This document shows positions 1,749-51,494 of a stretch of 64,000 nt of DNA, in pieces. The translations under genes were made by a program, and so were the position numbers. The stretch comes from Phycisphaerales bacterium. Its GTDB lineage: Bacteria > Planctomycetota > Phycisphaerae > Phycisphaerales > UBA5793. Every line of letters begins with the position of its first letter. Within the stretch, counting starts at the first letter, position 1. Under the pieces are notes generated by a model. The model did not search any database, had not been told where the DNA came from, and was given only the letters and a program-made list of their open reading frames with translations. Where the stretch lies: positions 1 to 64,000 of the forward strand of contig JADZAS010000030.1 of assembly GCA_020852515.1 (NCBI GenBank). The letters are read 5' to 3'.

Positions 1749-4433
1749 ATGATCCGAACGACGCGCGCGAGTCGAGTCATGAGGCTCCCATTGATCCGCG
1801 AAACCGCGGCACTTGTCCTGATTGCCTTCGCAACGGGCGCTCTCCGCGCGCAGGACCTCGGCCCATTGCGGTTCATGCCCGGCGATGACGCGGTCGCCCC
1901 GTCGATCGGACCGGTGCGCCAGCTGGCGATCGCCGCGGGCGGGCCCGGGTTTCTTGCCGTCTGGTCGGACAATCGAACCGTCATCAGCGGTCAGACCAAC
2001 GCGCCGGGCGACCCGAACGCGGGCAACATGGAGGACATCTACGGCCAACTTCTCGATGAAACGGGCGCACCGATCGGGCCGCCGGTCATCGTCGCCAACG
2101 TGGGCCGCAACCAGCGCGACCCGCGCCTGGCGTGGAACGGGCAGAACTGGCTCGTGGCCTTCGAAAGCGAAGACCCCGACTGGTACTTCGACGACCAAGT
2201 GCTCGCGGTGCGCGTGTCGCCGACGGGTGAGGCGCTCGATGCCGAGCCGATCTTCCTCTTCGGCATGGAAGACAACCAGGGCGCCTACGACCCCGCGGTC
2301 GCCAGCGACGGCCAGAACTGGCTCGTGGTTTGCGACCAGTGGGTCGGTGGCCAGCGGACGGTGCGCGCCAGGCGCGTGGCGCCGGACGGCACGGTCATCG
2401 ACGCCCAGCCGCGCAACATCCAACAGTCCAGCAGTCTGCAGTATCCGGTCGTCGATTTTGCCGGCGGCGTGTATCTGCTCGCGGCGAACAGTTACAGCCA
2501 GAACCAGTTCTATGTCCGGACATTTGACCCGAACCTCAATCCACTGACGAGTCTGACGAGCGTCGGTCCAGCCACGCCGTACCAGCACGTCGCCCTGGCG
2601 AGCAACGGATCGCGCTTCCTGGCCATCGGCGACCGCGCGCATCGCATCGAACCCAACGGCGCAAACCTCGATCCGAGCGGCATCGCGCTGGGCGGGAGCG
2701 AGACCGCGAGCTGGATCGGCAGCGCCTGGACGGGGACGCACTGGATCGCCTCGATGCGCACCTTCTCCGGCCAGGTGTACTACGACGTCAAAGCGCAGCG
2801 CATTTCCAACAGCGGCGCGCTGCTCGACCCGCAGCCGCGCCTCGTCGAAACCGCACCGCAGGGGCTCGACAACTTCGAAGCGCCCACGGGCGTTGCCGGA
2901 GCGGGAAACGGCGATGCCGCAGTCGCCTTCATCCGGCGCAATCTCCCGATGAATCACTCCGACGTGCGCGCTGCGCGCATCGACGCCGGCGGAAACGCCG
3001 ATCCGGCGCAGGACATCTCCATCGGCCTGCCGCGGCAGTCGTACACCCGCCTGTCAGAAGGTGATGAGTCGATCCTCGCCGTGTACGTCAGCGAGACATC
3101 CGGCTCGACGCGCATCCTGTCGCAGCGGATGTCGCCGGATGGCGACCCGATCGATGCGGAGCCCAACGTCATTGTCGAAATCAATGAAGAGGGCCCCAAT
3201 CCGCTCTTCACACCCAGCGTGGAGTGGAACGGCAGCACCTGGCTGGTCGTCTGGCGGGCGCGCGACGGCGGCGTGGTCGGCGTGCGCGTCTCACCCGACA
3301 ATGTGGTGCTCGACCCCGTGCCGCTGCGGATCACCCCCGGGGCGCCCGGGGGCGAGGGTTACGCCGCCGGCGCCGTCGCGGCGGCAGGCGACACGTTTGT
3401 CGTCGGCATCTTCCACACCATCAACTTCCACGAGCCGGTGCGCTACGCCGAATTCGTTCGTGTCAGCGCGGCAGGCGATGTGCTCGATCCCCTGCCGGTA
3501 TTCGTTGCCGGCGGCTTTTCGAGCGAAATGACCGGCGAAGCATTCGCGGCCGACGGCTTCCTGGCGTGGGCGCAATACGGCTCGCACGATTCGAGCGCAT
3601 CGTATATCCAGGGCGTGATCGTGCACGCCGACGGTTCCACTTCCGGCTCGCTCAGTATCGGAGCCACGGGCATGGAGCCGGACATTGCACCCGCCGGCGA
3701 CCGGGCGCTCGTCGTCTGGCAGGACGACACGACCATCCATCAGGATGACATCAAGGGCCGGTTCATCGCGCCTGGCGGATCGTTCCTCGGCGGCGAATTC
3801 ACCATCAGCGGCGCCGCGCACCCGCAGATGACGCCCGCTGCCGCGTTCGACGGATCGAACTTCGTCGTCGCCTGGACCGACTTCCGTCACCAGGTCGGCC
3901 AGGTGGATCAGTTGCGCGGCGACATCATCATGGCGCGCGTGGACGCAGATGGCACGGTGCTTGATCCCAGCGGCGTGCAGGTGACGGAGGGTCCGTTGCC
4001 GGAAACGCTGCCCGACGTCGCCAGCGCCGCTAGCCCGGCGATCATCGCCTTCAGTATGCTGCACGGGGAAGAGCGGCCCGAGATTCAGCGCTTCGGATAT
4101 CGCATCCTCGGCGGAGCCGGCGGCGGACCCGTGCTCACCATGGGCGGAACCTGCCCGGGCTCGATGCAGATCGGCGTCACCGGCGCGACGCCCGGCGGCA
4201 ACGTCGCCCTGCTGCACGCCACCGGCACGGGATCGGTTCGCATTCCGAACGGTAACCCGTGCGCTGGAACCACTCTGGGGTTGAACTCGACGGCCCAGCT
4301 CTACCGCGTGGTGCGCGCCGATGGGAACGGTTCGCTTTCACTCGATCTGCAGGTCCCGGCGCAGGCCTGCGGCCGCTACGTTCAGGCGCTGGATGCGGCC
4401 AGTTGCGCCACGAGCAATGTGGCTCGGTTGTGA
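1749..4433 (+). CDS. Large secreted propeller-like repeat protein with C-terminal module
   Basis: An 894-residue exported protein. AGGAGG at 1735-1740 is spaced eight bases from the ATG at 1749, so I prefer this over the nearby ATG at 1743 and over the much longer frame from 1602, which would overlap the previous gene. A signal peptide (LVLIAFATGALRAQ) follows. The body repeats blocks such as NGQNWLVAF, DGQNWLVV, NGSTWLVVW and DGSNFVVAWTD, each followed by R-V-x(2-3)-G-x-x-L-D-P, a pattern typical of propeller-like extracellular proteins of planctomycetes and myxobacteria. The final 100 residues are the shared module (TCPGSMQIGVTGATPGG to CATSNVARL). Function is unknown; a surface or matrix role is an inference. 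Confidence 0.85.
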   Translation: MIRTTRASRVMRLPLIRETAALVLIAFATGALRAQDLGPLRFMPGDDAVAPSIGPVRQLAIAAGGPGFLAVWSDNRTVISGQTNAPGDPNAGNMEDIYGQLLDETGAPIGPPVIVANVGRNQRDPRLAWNGQNWLVAFESEDPDWYFDDQVLAVRVSPTGEALDAEPIFLFGMEDNQGAYDPAVASDGQNWLVVCDQWVGGQRTVRARRVAPDGTVIDAQPRNIQQSSSLQYPVVDFAGGVYLLAANSYSQNQFYVRTFDPNLNPLTSLTSVGPATPYQHVALASNGSRFLAIGDRAHRIEPNGANLDPSGIALGGSETASWIGSAWTGTHWIASMRTFSGQVYYDVKAQRISNSGALLDPQPRLVETAPQGLDNFEAPTGVAGAGNGDAAVAFIRRNLPMNHSDVRAARIDAGGNADPAQDISIGLPRQSYTRLSEGDESILAVYVSETSGSTRILSQRMSPDGDPIDAEPNVIVEINEEGPNPLFTPSVEWNGSTWLVVWRARDGGVVGVRVSPDNVVLDPVPLRITPGAPGGEGYAAGAVAAAGDTFVVGIFHTINFHEPVRYAEFVRVSAAGDVLDPLPVFVAGGFSSEMTGEAFAADGFLAWAQYGSHDSSASYIQGVIVHADGSTSGSLSIGATGMEPDIAPAGDRALVVWQDDTTIHQDDIKGRFIAPGGSFLGGEFTISGAAHPQMTPAAAFDGSNFVVAWTDFRHQVGQVDQLRGDIIMARVDADGTVLDPSGVQVTEGPLPETLPDVASAASPAIIAFSMLHGEERPEIQRFGYRILGGAGGGPVLTMGGTCPGSMQIGVTGATPGGNVALLHATGTGSVRIPNGNPCAGTTLGLNSTAQLYRVVRADGNGSLSLDLQVPAQACGRYVQALDAASCATSNVARL

Positions 4434-4542: not shown

Positions 4543-6828
4543 ATGAATCGCACCGCCTGCGCTTCAATCGTGCTTGGTTTCGTGTTCGGTCTCGCCGCGC
4601 CGGTTCAGGCGCAGAATCCCGAGTGGAGAGTCCTCCGTCCCAGCAACAGCGGCATTCCCGGCGAGGAAATGCAGTGCATCCGCCTCGCGCCTGATCACGC
4701 GCTCTGGGTCGGCGCGCGCTGGCCGTTCTGGGGAGAAGGCGGCGTCGGCGTGCTGGACCAGCCGACTGAAGTGTGGACCACGTATTCAAACGTCGACACT
4801 CCCGTCCCCGGCGAATACATCCGCGACATCGAATTCGCCGCGAACGGCGCGGTGTGGATGGCTTCGGAGGGGGGCCTCGTGCGCAAACAGGGTGAGTCGT
4901 GGACCGTCTACAACACGTCCAACTCACCCCTGCTGCACAATGATGTGCGCAGCATCGCCCTCGACAGCCGCGGTCACGTCTGGCTCAACAACAGCAACGT
5001 CCAGAATCAGAACGCCGCACTCTTCGAGTTCGATCCCGTGAACAACACCTGGCGCAAGTTCGCGGTGCCGACCGAACTGCCCTGGCCCGATCCATGGAGA
5101 TCGCTCTCATCCGTCTTCGTGGACAGTCGCGACCGGGTCTGGGTCGGTAACGCCACGCTGACGGGAGCCGCGATGTACGACGGCCAGAGTTGGCGGTTGC
5201 TTGGGTCGAATCTCACCAGCTTCAAGCGATTCGCGGAAGACCTCAACGGCAATATCTGGCTGCTCTCCGGCGGGCTCGGATACTCCTTCTACAAGTATGA
5301 CGGCCAGAACTTCACCGAGTACAGCGCCGCCAACACCCCGTTCGTCAACACCACCATTACCTGCTTTGGCGTCGATGACGACGGGTGGTTCTACGTCGGC
5401 AACTGGGCCGGGCAGGTCATCCGCACCAGCAACTCCGGCGGAAACTGGCAGTCCTTCCTCAGCGGCCTGAACATCATCTTCAATCTCGAACCCGATCCGG
5501 CCAGCACCGGCCTCTGGGTACAGACGATCGGCGCCGTGGGACACTTCCGCAACGACGGCTCATGGGTGCGCGATTACAACTCCTACAACACCGGAATGCC
5601 GGACTTCTGGGTCGATCGATTCAACCTCGATCCGCAGGGCAATCTCTGGCTCGCGACGGGTGAAGCGGGCCTGTCGCGCTTCGACGGGCAGCACTGGCGC
5701 AACTGGGGCGCGCACAACGCCGGCTCAGAGCCGTATCCGTTTGCCGGGAACGAGCCGATGGGCGCGTTCCATATGGATCGCAATGGCGTCGGCTGGATGG
5801 GCGGTAACGGCATCGCCCGATGGATTCCTGAGACCGGTCAGTTCACGGGCTTCTGGAACTGGCAGAACAACCCCGGTATGGGGGTCAGCCAGTGGCAGTT
5901 CTTCGCCCAGGACATGAACGGGACACTCTTCTCGGCTGAGGAATACGGCGCGATCTACCGCTTCAGCGGCAGCATGTGGGTGCGCGAACCCGTGCAGGCC
6001 TACGCCGTGCTGGGCCTTCCGGGCATGCAGGCGGACTCGCGCGGCAACGTCTGGATCGCCGCGTGGTTCGACATTCACAAGTGGAACGGCTCGGTGTGGG
6101 CGCAGATCACGCTGCCGTATCGAGACTACTTCTTCGACCTCGGCGGCATTAACGACATGGCCATCGGCCCCGATGACGTGCTCTGGTTCGCCACTCCGCA
6201 GGGAATCGTGCGCTTCGACGGAGTGAACTTCACGCTCTACCGGTCTGAAACGCTGCCGCTGCCGGCCCGTTCGGTGTCGAGCATCGACATCCGCAGCGAC
6301 GGCGTCATGGGCATCGCCGCGGCCGACGATGCCAACGCATCGGGGATCGCCATCGTGCGCGGCGACATTTCCGACCCGGCGAACTGGGAAGTGCATCGCT
6401 ACGGGCAGTCACCTCAGCCGCACTGGCAGATCACTCAATCCACTTTCGATGCCGATGGCACGTACTGGGTTAGCGCGCTGAGCATGGGGATGTTTGGCCT
6501 GATCGTCGATCCCGTTTCCGCCCCGCAATTGAGTCTGACGGGTTCGTGCCCGGGCCCGATGCAGATCGGCGTCACCGGCGCAACGCCCGGCGGCAACGTC
6601 GCCCTGCTGCACGCCACCGGCACGGGATCGGTCCGCATTCCGAACGGCAACCCGTGCGCTGGAACCACCCTGGGGCTGAACTCGACGGCGCAGCTCTACC
6701 GTGTCATCCGCGCAGACGCCGGCGGCGGATTCCTGATCAATTTGAACGTGCCGCCGGGGGCGTGCGGCAGGTTCGTGCAGGGCCTTGACGCCTCAACCTG
6801 CACGACGACCAACGTCGAACCGCTCTGA
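4543..6828 (+). CDS. Secreted beta-propeller protein of two-component-regulator type with C-terminal module
   Basis: A 761-residue exported protein. The ATG at 4543 puts a clean signal peptide at the N-terminus (SIVLGFVFGLAAPVQAQ); an in-frame ATG at 4471 would add a hydrophilic leader ahead of it and is less likely. The chain carries many blades of the form G-x-x/L-W-x-A/G followed by G-x-x-x-F/Y-D-G-x-x-W/F (for example GAVWMASEGGLVR, GNLWLATGEAGLSRFDG, DVLWFATPQGIVRFDG), as in Reg_prop propellers, but no kinase or DNA-binding domain is attached. The last 95 residues are the shared module. The 3' DNA is almost identical to that of the gene before it. It is probably extracellular; ligand unknown. 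Confidence 0.85.
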   Translation: MNRTACASIVLGFVFGLAAPVQAQNPEWRVLRPSNSGIPGEEMQCIRLAPDHALWVGARWPFWGEGGVGVLDQPTEVWTTYSNVDTPVPGEYIRDIEFAANGAVWMASEGGLVRKQGESWTVYNTSNSPLLHNDVRSIALDSRGHVWLNNSNVQNQNAALFEFDPVNNTWRKFAVPTELPWPDPWRSLSSVFVDSRDRVWVGNATLTGAAMYDGQSWRLLGSNLTSFKRFAEDLNGNIWLLSGGLGYSFYKYDGQNFTEYSAANTPFVNTTITCFGVDDDGWFYVGNWAGQVIRTSNSGGNWQSFLSGLNIIFNLEPDPASTGLWVQTIGAVGHFRNDGSWVRDYNSYNTGMPDFWVDRFNLDPQGNLWLATGEAGLSRFDGQHWRNWGAHNAGSEPYPFAGNEPMGAFHMDRNGVGWMGGNGIARWIPETGQFTGFWNWQNNPGMGVSQWQFFAQDMNGTLFSAEEYGAIYRFSGSMWVREPVQAYAVLGLPGMQADSRGNVWIAAWFDIHKWNGSVWAQITLPYRDYFFDLGGINDMAIGPDDVLWFATPQGIVRFDGVNFTLYRSETLPLPARSVSSIDIRSDGVMGIAAADDANASGIAIVRGDISDPANWEVHRYGQSPQPHWQITQSTFDADGTYWVSALSMGMFGLIVDPVSAPQLSLTGSCPGPMQIGVTGATPGGNVALLHATGTGSVRIPNGNPCAGTTLGLNSTAQLYRVIRADAGGGFLINLNVPPGACGRFVQGLDASTCTTTNVEPL

Positions 6829-48510: not shown

Positions 48511-48959
48511 TCGCCGCGGATGCGACGATCGCTCCGGGAGCACGCTTCCGGGGAGGAAAGTCCGAGCACGGCAGGACACGGTGATGGGTAACACCCACCG
48601 GCTCGAACAGGGCGCTTCGGCGCCGCGGTCGCGGGCCAGGGAAAGTGCCACAGAAAACACACCGCCGATGATTGGGCCCCGCGCCCGAAACAGGCAAGGG
48701 TGAAAAGGTGCGGTAAGAGCGCACCGCCCGATTGGTGACAATCGGGGCATGGCAAACCCCACCGCGTGCAAGGTCGCACAGTTCCCGGCTGGTCCGGCCA
48801 ATGGGAACGGGTAGACCGCTGCGTGACGGCGCTTCGGCGTTTTCACGCCCCGTCGCGGCAACGCGCCGGGCAGAGAAATGATCGTCCCGCGCCGGCCGCG
48901 AGCCCCCGTCAAGGAGCAGGCCAGCGCGGAACAGAACTCGGCTTACCATCCGCTGCCGA
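48511..48959 (+). ncRNA. rnpB: RNase P RNA (class A)
   Basis: Conserved core elements occur in order: GAGGAAAGTCCG (48553), GGCAAGGGTGAAAAGG with GCGGTAAGAGCGCACCG (about 48690-48730), GGCAAACCCCACCG (about 48750), CAGAGAAATGATCG (48871) and ACAGAACTCGGCTTAC (48931). The first and last elements form P4. Helix P1 pairs GCCGCGGATG (48513) with CATCCGCTGC (48947). TATCAT at 48499 fits a -10 element, with transcription beginning near 48511. A hairpin at 48970-48998 follows. It is the catalytic RNA that matures tRNA 5' ends. Confidence 0.97.
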
Positions 48960-49035
48960 CCGTTCACTGCACACGCCTTGATGACCTCAATGCGTGTGTC
49001 GGTGCGCGCTGATCCAGTCGGACGTTTAGCGCTTG

Positions 49036-49164
49036 AGCACCAAGACGCAAAGGCACAAAGACACGAAGAAGAACTGAATCGGAGTGAACCGGGGGCGCTG
49101 ATTTCGATTCAATTCAAAACTGGCATTCTGATTTGTGACGTCGTGCCGTTGTGACTTTGTGCTG
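49036..49164. repeat. Intergenic inverted repeat of the AAAGGCAC family, copy 3
   Basis: CAAGACGCAAAGGCACAAAG on the left faces CGTCGTGCCGTTGTGACTTTG on the right, as in the copies near 42.5 and 43.7 kb. The stretch from rnpB to the transposase (about 450 bases) holds this repeat, the cinA-end duplicate and a REP hairpin, and no gene. Confidence 0.65.
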
Positions 49165-49228
49165 AATGTGTTGGACCCCCGACGACCGCTCACGTTGCTC
49201 CGCGATCTCCGCGCCTCCGCGTGAGGTC

Positions 49229-49262
49229 TCACACCTCGACGCGTGGCCGATACTCGCCGAGC
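49229..49262. repeat. Duplicate of the last codons of cinA
   Basis: These 34 bases match 50184-50217, the stop codon and last ten codons of cinA (minus strand), with three mismatches. Read on the minus strand they still encode L-G-E-Y-R-P-R-V-E-V-stop. They lie immediately outside the left REP hairpin. Confidence 0.85.
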
Positions 49263-49264
49263 CG

Positions 49265-49396
49265 GGTGCCGTGGTCTGGAGGGAGGCTTTGCGACCGGAA
49301 GGCCACGCGGGGGCGGTGGGAGGTTCGTTGACCTTGTTCGTCAATCGTGCGATCGCGTGGCCTGCGCTCCCGGAGCGTCGCTTAGACCACGGCACC
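49265..49396. repeat. REP/BIME hairpin, left side of the RAYT gene
   Basis: It begins GGTGCCGTGGTCT and ends AGACCACGGCACC, a perfect 13-bp terminal inverted repeat. Inner arms (GGCCACGCG and CGCGTGGCC) also pair. The first 50 bases recur at 49962. Confidence 0.9.
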
Positions 49397-49416
49397 CGGC
49401 GGAGTAGGATCTCTCG

Positions 49417-49953
49417 ATGGAGAAGCGGCGCCATCGCAAGCGATACGAGCACGGCGGTGATGCGCGATACCTTACGTTCTCGTGCTTTCGCAGACTCCCT
49501 CTGTTTGGCAATGACCGGATCAAAGATGCATTCGCGGAGCATCTCGAAATCCGGCGACAGCGCGATGGGTTCCGACTCATCGCGTGGGTCATCATGCCGG
49601 AACACGTTCATCTGCTGCTGGTCCCGGCGCCGACACAGGAGTTGCCGCCCGTACTGCGCGGCCTCAAGGAGCCATTCGCCAGGATGATGCTCAAAACCTG
49701 GCGCGAACTCAACGCGCCAATACTGTCGCGGCTGGTTGATTCGCGAGGATTGACACGATTCTGGCAGCGCGGTGGAGGCTATGACCGGAACATCGTGAGC
49801 GAGCACGAGTTGTTGGAAAAGACCGAGTACATTCACAACAACCCCATGCGCCGCAGCCTCGTGGAAAAGGCGACGGCTTGGCCATGGTTGTCGGCACGCT
49901 GGTACGCAGGAGACCGTGGCGGGCCAGTCTCAATTGATCCGCTGCGGCCATAG
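49417..49953 (+). CDS. REP-associated tyrosine transposase (RAYT)
   Basis: A 178-residue Y1 transposase of the IS200/IS605-like RAYT group. It opens with RRHRKRYEHGGDARYLTFSC, has the HUH metal site MPEHVHLLL (His63, His65) and the catalytic tyrosine in TEYIHNNP (Tyr138), followed by WPWLSARWY. Such enzymes cut and join single strands at REP hairpins and are usually domesticated single-copy genes. Here it stands between two hairpins with the same termini. The start at 49417 is ATG, with TAGGAT nearby. The frame is intact, so it may still be active. Confidence 0.95.
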   Translation: MEKRRHRKRYEHGGDARYLTFSCFRRLPLFGNDRIKDAFAEHLEIRRQRDGFRLIAWVIMPEHVHLLLVPAPTQELPPVLRGLKEPFARMMLKTWRELNAPILSRLVDSRGLTRFWQRGGGYDRNIVSEHELLEKTEYIHNNPMRRSLVEKATAWPWLSARWYAGDRGGPVSIDPLRP

Positions 49954-49961
49954 TTCATCGG

Positions 49962-50172
49962 GGTGCCGTGGTCTGGAGGGAGGCTTTGCGACCGGAAGGC
50001 CACGCGGGGGCGCGGTGAGTGGGCCGTTCTGGCTGCGCGTCTATCGCGCTGTCGCGTGGCCTTCCCTCACAGAGCTTCGGTCAGGCCTCGGCACCCTGCT
50101 CAGAGTCGTTCGCCTGTTTGCTGCGCGATCGCGTGGCCTGCGCTCTCAGAGCATCGCTTAGACCACGGCACC
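49962..50172. repeat. REP/BIME hairpin array, right side of the RAYT gene
   Basis: It starts with the same 50 bases as the left element (GGTGCCGTGGTCT onwards) and ends AGACCACGGCACC. It is longer (211 versus 132 bases) because a degenerate end (GGCCTCGGCACC, near 50085-50096) is followed by a further tail, so it looks like one full hairpin plus a second 3' half. It stops 11 bases before the cinA stop codon. Confidence 0.9.
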
Positions 50173-50183
50173 CTAACGCCGAC

Positions 50184-51494
50184 TCACACTTCCACGCGCG
50201 GCCGATACTCGCCGAGCATTTCGGGAAGTAGGCCGTCGTTGGCGAGGTGGAAGTGGAGCATCGCCAGGGCGGTGATGGCCGCGCGCTGGCGGATCATCTC
50301 GCGATTGCCAGGGAAGACGAACCGCCGCACGTGCGAACTCGGCTCGCCGTCTTCGTCGATGAACGCCAGGGCGACAAAGACGGTGCCGACGGGCTTAGCG
50401 CTGCTGCCGCCGTCGGGCCCGGCGATGCCGGTGATCGCCAGGGCAAAGCTCGAGCCGCTCTGGGCCAGCGCGCCGATGGCCAGCTGGTCCGCCGTGAGCC
50501 CCGACACGGCGCCGTGCTGCTCGATGGTCTCGGGCGCGACATCGAGCAGGTCGATCTTGAACTCGTTGCTGTAGGTCACCCAGCCGCCGCGGTAGACGGC
50601 GCTGGCCCCGGAAACTTCGGTCACCATCGAGCCCAGCAAGCCGCCGGTGCATGATTCGGCGGTGGCGAGGCTGGCACTGCGCGCCGCCAGTTGGCGCACG
50701 ACCACGCCGGCGAGCGTGTCATCATCCTTGCCGAAGGCGTAGACGCCCAGGCGATCGCGAACCGTGCGCGCCGCGGTCACGACGAGGTCTTCCACGTCCG
50801 GCCCCGATCCGTCGGCGCGGATGCGCACGCTGACGACAAAGTCGCGCACGAGCGTGCCGACGACGGGCTGGGCGTCGCGCTGCATGAGGTCTTCGATCAT
50901 TTCGCCGACTTTGCTTTCGGCGAGGCTCACGCTGTGGATCCAGGTGGTGAGGCAGCGCTGAGCGCCGTTGGTCAGTTGGCGCAGCGCCGGCTCGACGTGC
51001 TCGGCCCACATGTGCTTCATCTCGCCGGGCACGCCGGGCATGACGAACACGCGGGCCTCGCCGATCTGCGCGCGCAAGCCTGGAGCCGTGCCCAGAGCGT
51101 TGGGGATCAGGGCCGCCGAGGTCGGCCGCTGCACCTGCTGGAGGTTGCGGCGGGGCATGTCCATACCTCGCTTCTCGAAGCGCACCTTGAGCAGCGTCAG
51201 GGCCCGCTCATCCGTTTCGAGGCTTTCGCCCATCGCGTCGGCCAGCGCCTGCCGCGTCAGATCATCTTCAGTGGGGCCCAGCCCGCCAGTGATGAGCAGC
51301 ACGCCCACGCGCCGGCCCGACTCGGCGATGGAGTCAGCGATGGACCGGCGATCGTCGGGCAGCGCGAGGTGAAACGCCGTCTCAATCCCGAGGCCGAGCA
51401 GTTGCTCGCTCAGCCACGTGCTGTTGGTGTCGACGCGATCGCCGCTGGTGAGTTCATCGCCGATGGTGAGGATGCCGGCCGTGATTGCGCTCAT
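50184..51494 (-). CDS. cinA: CinA-family protein (competence-inducible; nicotinamide-nucleotide amidohydrolase domain)
   Basis: A 436-residue two-domain protein. The N-terminal part is the molybdopterin-binding-like domain (ILTIGDELTSGDRVDTNS, LLITGGLGPTEDD, VFVMPGVPGEM). The C-terminal 160 residues are the CinA amidase domain (SLATAESCTGGLLGSMVTEVSGAS, YSNEFKIDLL, AITGIAGPDGG). Homologues deamidate nicotinamide mononucleotide and recycle pyridine nucleotides. It is the last gene of the leftward pyrF-pyk run. The right REP element ends 11 bases beyond its stop, and a copy of its final codons lies beyond the RAYT block. Confidence 0.95.
   Translation of the reverse strand: MSAITAGILTIGDELTSGDRVDTNSTWLSEQLLGLGIETAFHLALPDDRRSIADSIAESGRRVGVLLITGGLGPTEDDLTRQALADAMGESLETDERALTLLKVRFEKRGMDMPRRNLQQVQRPTSAALIPNALGTAPGLRAQIGEARVFVMPGVPGEMKHMWAEHVEPALRQLTNGAQRCLTTWIHSVSLAESKVGEMIEDLMQRDAQPVVGTLVRDFVVSVRIRADGSGPDVEDLVVTAARTVRDRLGVYAFGKDDDTLAGVVVRQLAARSASLATAESCTGGLLGSMVTEVSGASAVYRGGWVTYSNEFKIDLLDVAPETIEQHGAVSGLTADQLAIGALAQSGSSFALAITGIAGPDGGSSAKPVGTVFVALAFIDEDGEPSSHVRRFVFPGNREMIRQRAAITALAMLHFHLANDGLLPEMLGEYRPRVEV

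Follow-up and report, generated by a model that had tools for sequence, protein, structure and literature searches.

The locus raises the question of how the last codons of cinA came to stand a second time, joined to no gene, on the far side of a block of REP elements and a RAYT transposase. The stretch that we analysed (the window) covers positions 1-64000 of contig C30 of a 4.72-Mb draft genome (G000). It was compared with four congeneric genomes, G001, G002, G003 and G004, and the search for further copies of the duplicated segment also took in G005. By cinA amino-acid identity, G004 is closest to G000 (91%), followed by G001 (83%) and by G003 and G002 (76-77%). The order (Gfo/Idh-like gene)-rnpB-cinA-pyruvate kinase is kept in the congeners with various insertions, and that of rnpB and cinA is conserved throughout G000-G004; gene names besides rnpB, cinA and RAYT were read from translations. 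The features of the rnpB-cinA interval in the window are:

48512-48961, plus strand: rnpB, RNase P RNA class A, the far flank of the interval (Rfam RF00010, 187.7 bits).
49198-49225, no strand assigned: copy of a dispersed short repeat (CTCCGCGATCTCCGCGCCTCCGCGTGAG) adjoining the ghost's stop codon, with more copies in G000 and G004.
49229-49262, minus strand: the ghost, joined to no gene, which repeats the final 34 bases of cinA, TGA included, with alleles CCA, GTC and GAG.
49264-49397, no strand assigned: the REP pair beside the ghost, with 1 base between its tip and the ghost (arms inverted, tip consensus GGGTGCCGTGGTC).
49417-49953, plus strand: RAYT, a REP-associated tyrosine transposase of 178 aa (NCBIfam NF047646, E 6e-25; Pfam Y1_Tnp, E 4e-9).
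49961-50096, no strand assigned: REP pair on the cinA side.
50125-50173, no strand assigned: single REP closest to cinA, orthologous in G001.
50174-50183, no strand assigned: 10-base spacer from REP tip to cinA stop, matching the spacer of G001 at 6/10 positions.
50184-50217, minus strand: the live copy, the last 34 bases of cinA, with alleles CCG, GTG and GAA.
50184-51494, minus strand: cinA, 436 aa, intact (TIGR00200, 292 bits; Pfam CinA, 171 bits).

Other repeats also occur in this DNA. Dispersed short inverted-repeat elements (CACAAAGGCACAAAG...CTTTGTG and CTCACGCGGAGGCGCGGAGATCGCGGAG) are found in the intergenic DNA of G000 and G004 (window 49040-49225; L054, L055, L057-L065), and the G004 rnpB (G004:C72:38272-38885; L051, L067) holds two additional palindromic stretches (CCGCCACTAAATCGA...TCGATTTAGTGGCGG and a relative) that its congeners lack. 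The start of the window carries two long direct repeats, 1-274 with 1389-1662 (94%) and 4152-4321 with 6547-6716 (93%).

The 34-base repeat is real and chance is excluded. As the original prediction had it, 49229-49262 and 50184-50217 stand in the same orientation with three mismatches, being identical at 31 of 34 positions (32/35 if one shared base is added, 49228-49262 and 50183-50217); about 2e-6 such pairs would be expected within 3 kb in a random 64-kb sequence of the same composition. A genome-wide pattern search allowing up to 3 mismatches found exactly two copies in G000, and no compared relative carries the duplicate without the block; many genomic copies, or such a relative, had been named as counting against the insertion first proposed. 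The ghost comprises the last ten cinA codons plus the stop with zero amino-acid change, and all three mismatches to the live copy fall at third codon positions and are synonymous, a feature absent from the original prediction. On one side the ghost adjoins a REP tip, and on the other its own stop codon is followed by ordinary intergenic DNA.

The block does lie exactly between the two copies, with the far copy abutting a REP tip, as had been claimed. The gaps, given at first as 3 and 11 bases, have to be revised: with the REP tip GGGTGCCGTGGTC as the edge, 1 base (49263) separates the block from the ghost and 10 bases (50174-50183) separate it from cinA. Read from the ghost, the order is 1 base, REP pair, RAYT gene, REP pair, single REP and 10 bases. 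The transposase scores 87.8 bits against NF047646 (cut-off 80) and belongs to the RAYT family, and with inverted REP pairs on both sides of RAYT and dispersed REPs in the genome (30 matches to the tip in G000, one mismatch being allowed) the arrangement is that of a REPtron. RAYT is the sole mobility gene identified; no integrase gene was found in the block, where the family search covered RAYT and the other listed open reading frames overlap RAYT or the REPs. The junction at the ghost reads GGC|TCGG, which appears to match the C|T cut context of REP transposases.

At the three differing sites the two copies carry the alleles of different lineages. The live end (CCG, GTG, GAA) agrees with G004, and the ghost (CCA, GTC, GAG) agrees with the live cinA of G001; in GTC and GAG the third base is the outgroup state too, and CCA is common to the ghost and G001 only. 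The live copy differs from the G004 end at 1 of 34 positions (33/34 match) and the ghost at 4 of 34, in an allele phylogeny whose basis of 34 bases is short. One account would be that the ghost is a recent copy of G000's own cinA end, made by slippage, tandem duplication or insertion and then left to random decay. Beyond the existence of the repeat, only the known tandem REPIN clusters with duplicated flanks (PMC3116915) speak for this. Three random hits would all be synonymous in about 2% of cases, and three random mutations would all give the G001 base with P ~6e-5, so the ghost does not look like a recent copy of this gene end and we give that account hardly any credence. The allele pattern indicates either that the ghost split from the live copy before the changes in G000/G004 or that it stems from another lineage.

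Along its whole length, up to the last base, G000 cinA resembles that of G004 uniformly and no foreign tract was found in it; the live end is thereby shown to have been inherited vertically. Since separation, the ghost has undergone 0-1 changes of its own. DNA free of constraint would be expected to gather 5-9 over the depth from G004 to G001, and a ghost that was coding until recently 1-3. At the REP loci that were compared, most of the intergenic sequence defies alignment already between G000 and G004, so a 34-mer that had long been non-coding would hardly be expected to persist. Together these observations suggest that the ghost was probably coding until recently, in some other genome.

G001 carries a REP-RAYT-REP block at the same site, 10 bases past the cinA stop and with a homologous spacer, and the ghost is undetected there. 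G004, G003 and G002 have neither block nor ghost, and the G004 interval holds a 3.3-kb insert with other REPs instead. Between G000 and G001, RAYT is 88% identical in amino acids and 86% in DNA, and cinA is 81% identical in DNA; divergence at 4-fold sites is 0.35 for RAYT and 0.39 for cinA. Given the same distance, the homologous spacer and this similar divergence, sequence comparison indicates that the block is either old at the cinA locus or exchanged within the genus. No copy of the ghost with up to 3 mismatches was found in G001-G005 apart from the live cinA ends. A decayed ghost behind the G001 block left no trace beyond chance (~10-25% of shuffles score equally), and the best score in the G004 interval lies inside the shuffle range. 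An imported rnpB end is likewise unsupported, as sites are G004-like up to 49009.

We therefore consider it probable, as the simplest account, that the two gene ends descend from the cinA genes of different species and that DNA of a relative recombined here, leaving a junction of two cinA haplotypes. Transfer or recombination from a relative's cinA locus had been offered originally as the alternative to insertion, and it is now favoured: the three synonymous mismatches, the G001 bases in an almost unchanged ghost, the G004-like live end, and a block that occurs in G001 without the ghost and is absent from G004, G003 and G002 all point that way. Against it, the donor lineage of the ghost was not found among the compared genomes, and the RAYT divergence, being near that of cinA, suggests that the block may be vertical rather than newly imported. 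The contig, apparently from a MAG, might also have joined two strains at a REP repeat. REPs are repetitive, the copies look like those of two species, and the identified congeners are Planctomycetota/Phycisphaerales MAG records. However, the flanks on either side show the usual level of identity to G004, and the contig would have been joined at the unique ghost sequence rather than within a shared repeat, so that another genome would need the same REP-ghost junction; we regard an assembly chimera as very unlikely.

A survey of 39 REP clusters in G000, G001 and G004 bears on the origin of such duplications, for which a check at other clusters had been proposed; one similar case was found and none of the rest was convincing. 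At G004:C14:25769-25964 (L106), a REP pair lies between two genes, with a copy of a unique 21-base direct repeat, GCTGAGCGCGGCGG(A/G)CACTGA, on each side; the copies are identical at 20/21 and lie 16 and 2 bases from the REP tips. The orthologous gene border in G000 (L148, G000:C15, just upstream of 165164) is an empty site with one copy and no REP, and the REP is absent from this site in G001, G002 and G003 as well. The layout resembles that at cinA, and here too GC|T is a possible reading of the joint. No clear foreign tract was seen in the neighbouring gene. By comparison with its empty site, L106 is a datable REP insertion with what looks like a target-duplication signature.

Three further candidates for a similar duplication were rejected. 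L128 and L099 gave the strongest hits, but to repeats of other kinds: at L128 the repeat is dispersed, with 26 copies in G004, and at L099 it was judged dispersed by its appearance. L072 is weak. A REP insertion at G000:C30:222828, compared with G004, has fairly clean flanks and no duplication. Among RAYT genes of the order, 33 other loci were long enough for a search (one being the G001 cinA block), and none had a convincing gene-end duplication; an 85-base repeat at L029 belongs to a tandem gene duplication and was dismissed as a RAYT-flank duplication. Short single-pair repeats occur at RAYT loci L210, L225 and L226. L128 itself (G004:C58:131815-132323) is a tandem array of REP pairs in which a 49-base dispersed repeat, whose core occurs 26 times in G004, and a 36-base spacer recur with each pair, the array ending in a third copy of the 49-mer. 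At L200 (G003:C40:11000-19390), a prepilin-like gene stands as two tandem copies (78% identical in DNA over 1.5 kb) that are separated by a RAYT and by a densely packed array of a different repeat family. A 100-base coding segment (L114, G004:C23:4397-4496) is 98% identical to G001:C33:64364-64463, against 83% between G004 and G000, which hints at DNA exchange among congeners; nothing is unusual about the wider locus.

Insertion-made duplication could account for the ghost if the first insertion of the block behind cinA, in an ancestor of G000, G001 and G004, copied ~34-44 target bases. The second copy would then have persisted in G000 with hardly a change and been lost from G001 and G004, and the live copies would have drifted synonymously. 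The geometry suits this account, running copy, 10 nt, REP to REP, 1 nt, copy, much as L106 runs copy, 16 nt, REP pair, 2 nt, copy with its 21 bases (20/21) and its single-copy empty site in G000; the ghost's GTC and GAG third bases, as outgroup states, are also ancestral. However, the ghost must have stayed almost unchanged (P of at most one change ~0.001-0.06), the far side of the G001 block holds no trace beyond chance, and the remaining REP clusters lack such a unique duplication. As target-site duplications, the L106 copies qualify at 20/21, and the cinA copies carry the alleles of different lineages. The original doubt that RAYT/REP insertion makes long duplications was a fair one, since IS200/IS605 elements are described as being without larger target duplications (PMC2817692); on the other hand, flanking sequences are known to be repeated along with REPINs in tandem REPIN clusters of Pseudomonas (PMC3116915). 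A tandem REPIN-type array with duplicated flanks of this kind is present in G004:C58. The idea that the block duplicated its target on insertion has thus become less likely, given the foreign alleles and the G001 block without a ghost. Because L106 leaves an insertion-linked origin possible, the ancestral duplication keeps a modest minority chance.

If a relative's DNA did recombine at the locus, as we favour, the event would have linked the outer REP tip with the final 34 bases of another cinA allele. A block-less donor haplotype would then have read as a live cinA end, CCACGCGTCGAGGTGTGA, followed by GACCTCACGCGG. On a first route, the block might have come with the relative's cinA end, for instance as a circle closed at the REP flank GGC|TCGGCG, which would integrate through short cinA homology and require no foreign DNA beyond the block; the native flanks on both block sides agree with this. 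On a second route, a relative that lacks the block may have contributed the segment from its cinA end to rnpB, joined to the REP tip in a recombination that had homology at one end alone, with rnpB as the anchor. Sites remain G004-like as far as 49009, which leaves little room for an imported rnpB flank and speaks mildly against this second route. The free end might have been supplied by a RAYT cut at C|T: the junction GGC|T fits what RAYT could leave, and a circular, RAYT-cut intermediate is plausible. GCT is a candidate microhomology common to the REP flank of G001 (CACCCGGCTGG), taken as a proxy for the native flank, and cinA (AATGCTCGG). The outcome would resemble an attL/attR pair at a gene end, with cinA left intact. 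The REP-tip joint and the 21-base duplication in G004 also fit a duplication made by insertion and to that extent count against recombination between two alleles.

A bolder possibility is that RAYT excises the REP block together with 35-45 bases of the adjoining gene end and that the resulting circle goes on to integrate at that gene end of another strain or species. C|T cuts offset from the REPs, far on one side and near on the other, would leave 20-35 base duplications. We think this unlikely; if true, REP elements would travel between species with a portable attachment site.

The insertion mechanism of REPs and REPINs has been described as unresolved (PMC3116915, PMC8266576), and the evidence called for is junctions that can be dated and whose empty sites are known. 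The cinA locus and L106 provide two junctions at which REP tips are joined to duplicated gene-border DNA, one of them between the alleles of two species. Should RAYT be the maker of such joints, the mechanism of mobility could be tested in vitro; should they arise by recombination, the case shows how REP blocks can spread among related species without transposing.

Three known systems come close to this locus. Integrative elements may use gene 3' ends as att sites, in which case the gene end is restored and duplicated beyond the insert with synonymous differences. The cinA end is likewise restored and duplicated on the far side with synonymous differences, but the cinA block differs in having RAYT, and no detected integrase, as its mobility gene. 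Homology-facilitated illegitimate recombination proceeds through 3-10 bp of microhomology; circularised DNA integrates with partial gene duplication, and E. coli yields both kinds of product from incoming DNA (PMC3240628). One homologous side, a putative short-identity junction (GCT) and a partial gene duplication liken the locus to such single-crossover integration, whereas the duplicate here spans 34 bases against 109-950 bp in E. coli and the junction falls at a REP tip (PMC3240628). REP transposases cleave DNA at C|T next to REPs, join it there and transfer strands (PMC8266576), and the cinA block has the known REPtron organization, with RAYT between inverted REP pairs, dispersed REPs and REP pairs near gene ends. 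It differs in that the RAYT block is enclosed by a duplicated gene end with apparently foreign alleles, which is not described in the REP/RAYT papers cited here; with one gene end on either side of a RAYT block, in the versions of two species, the locus is a further, new form of these known arrangements.
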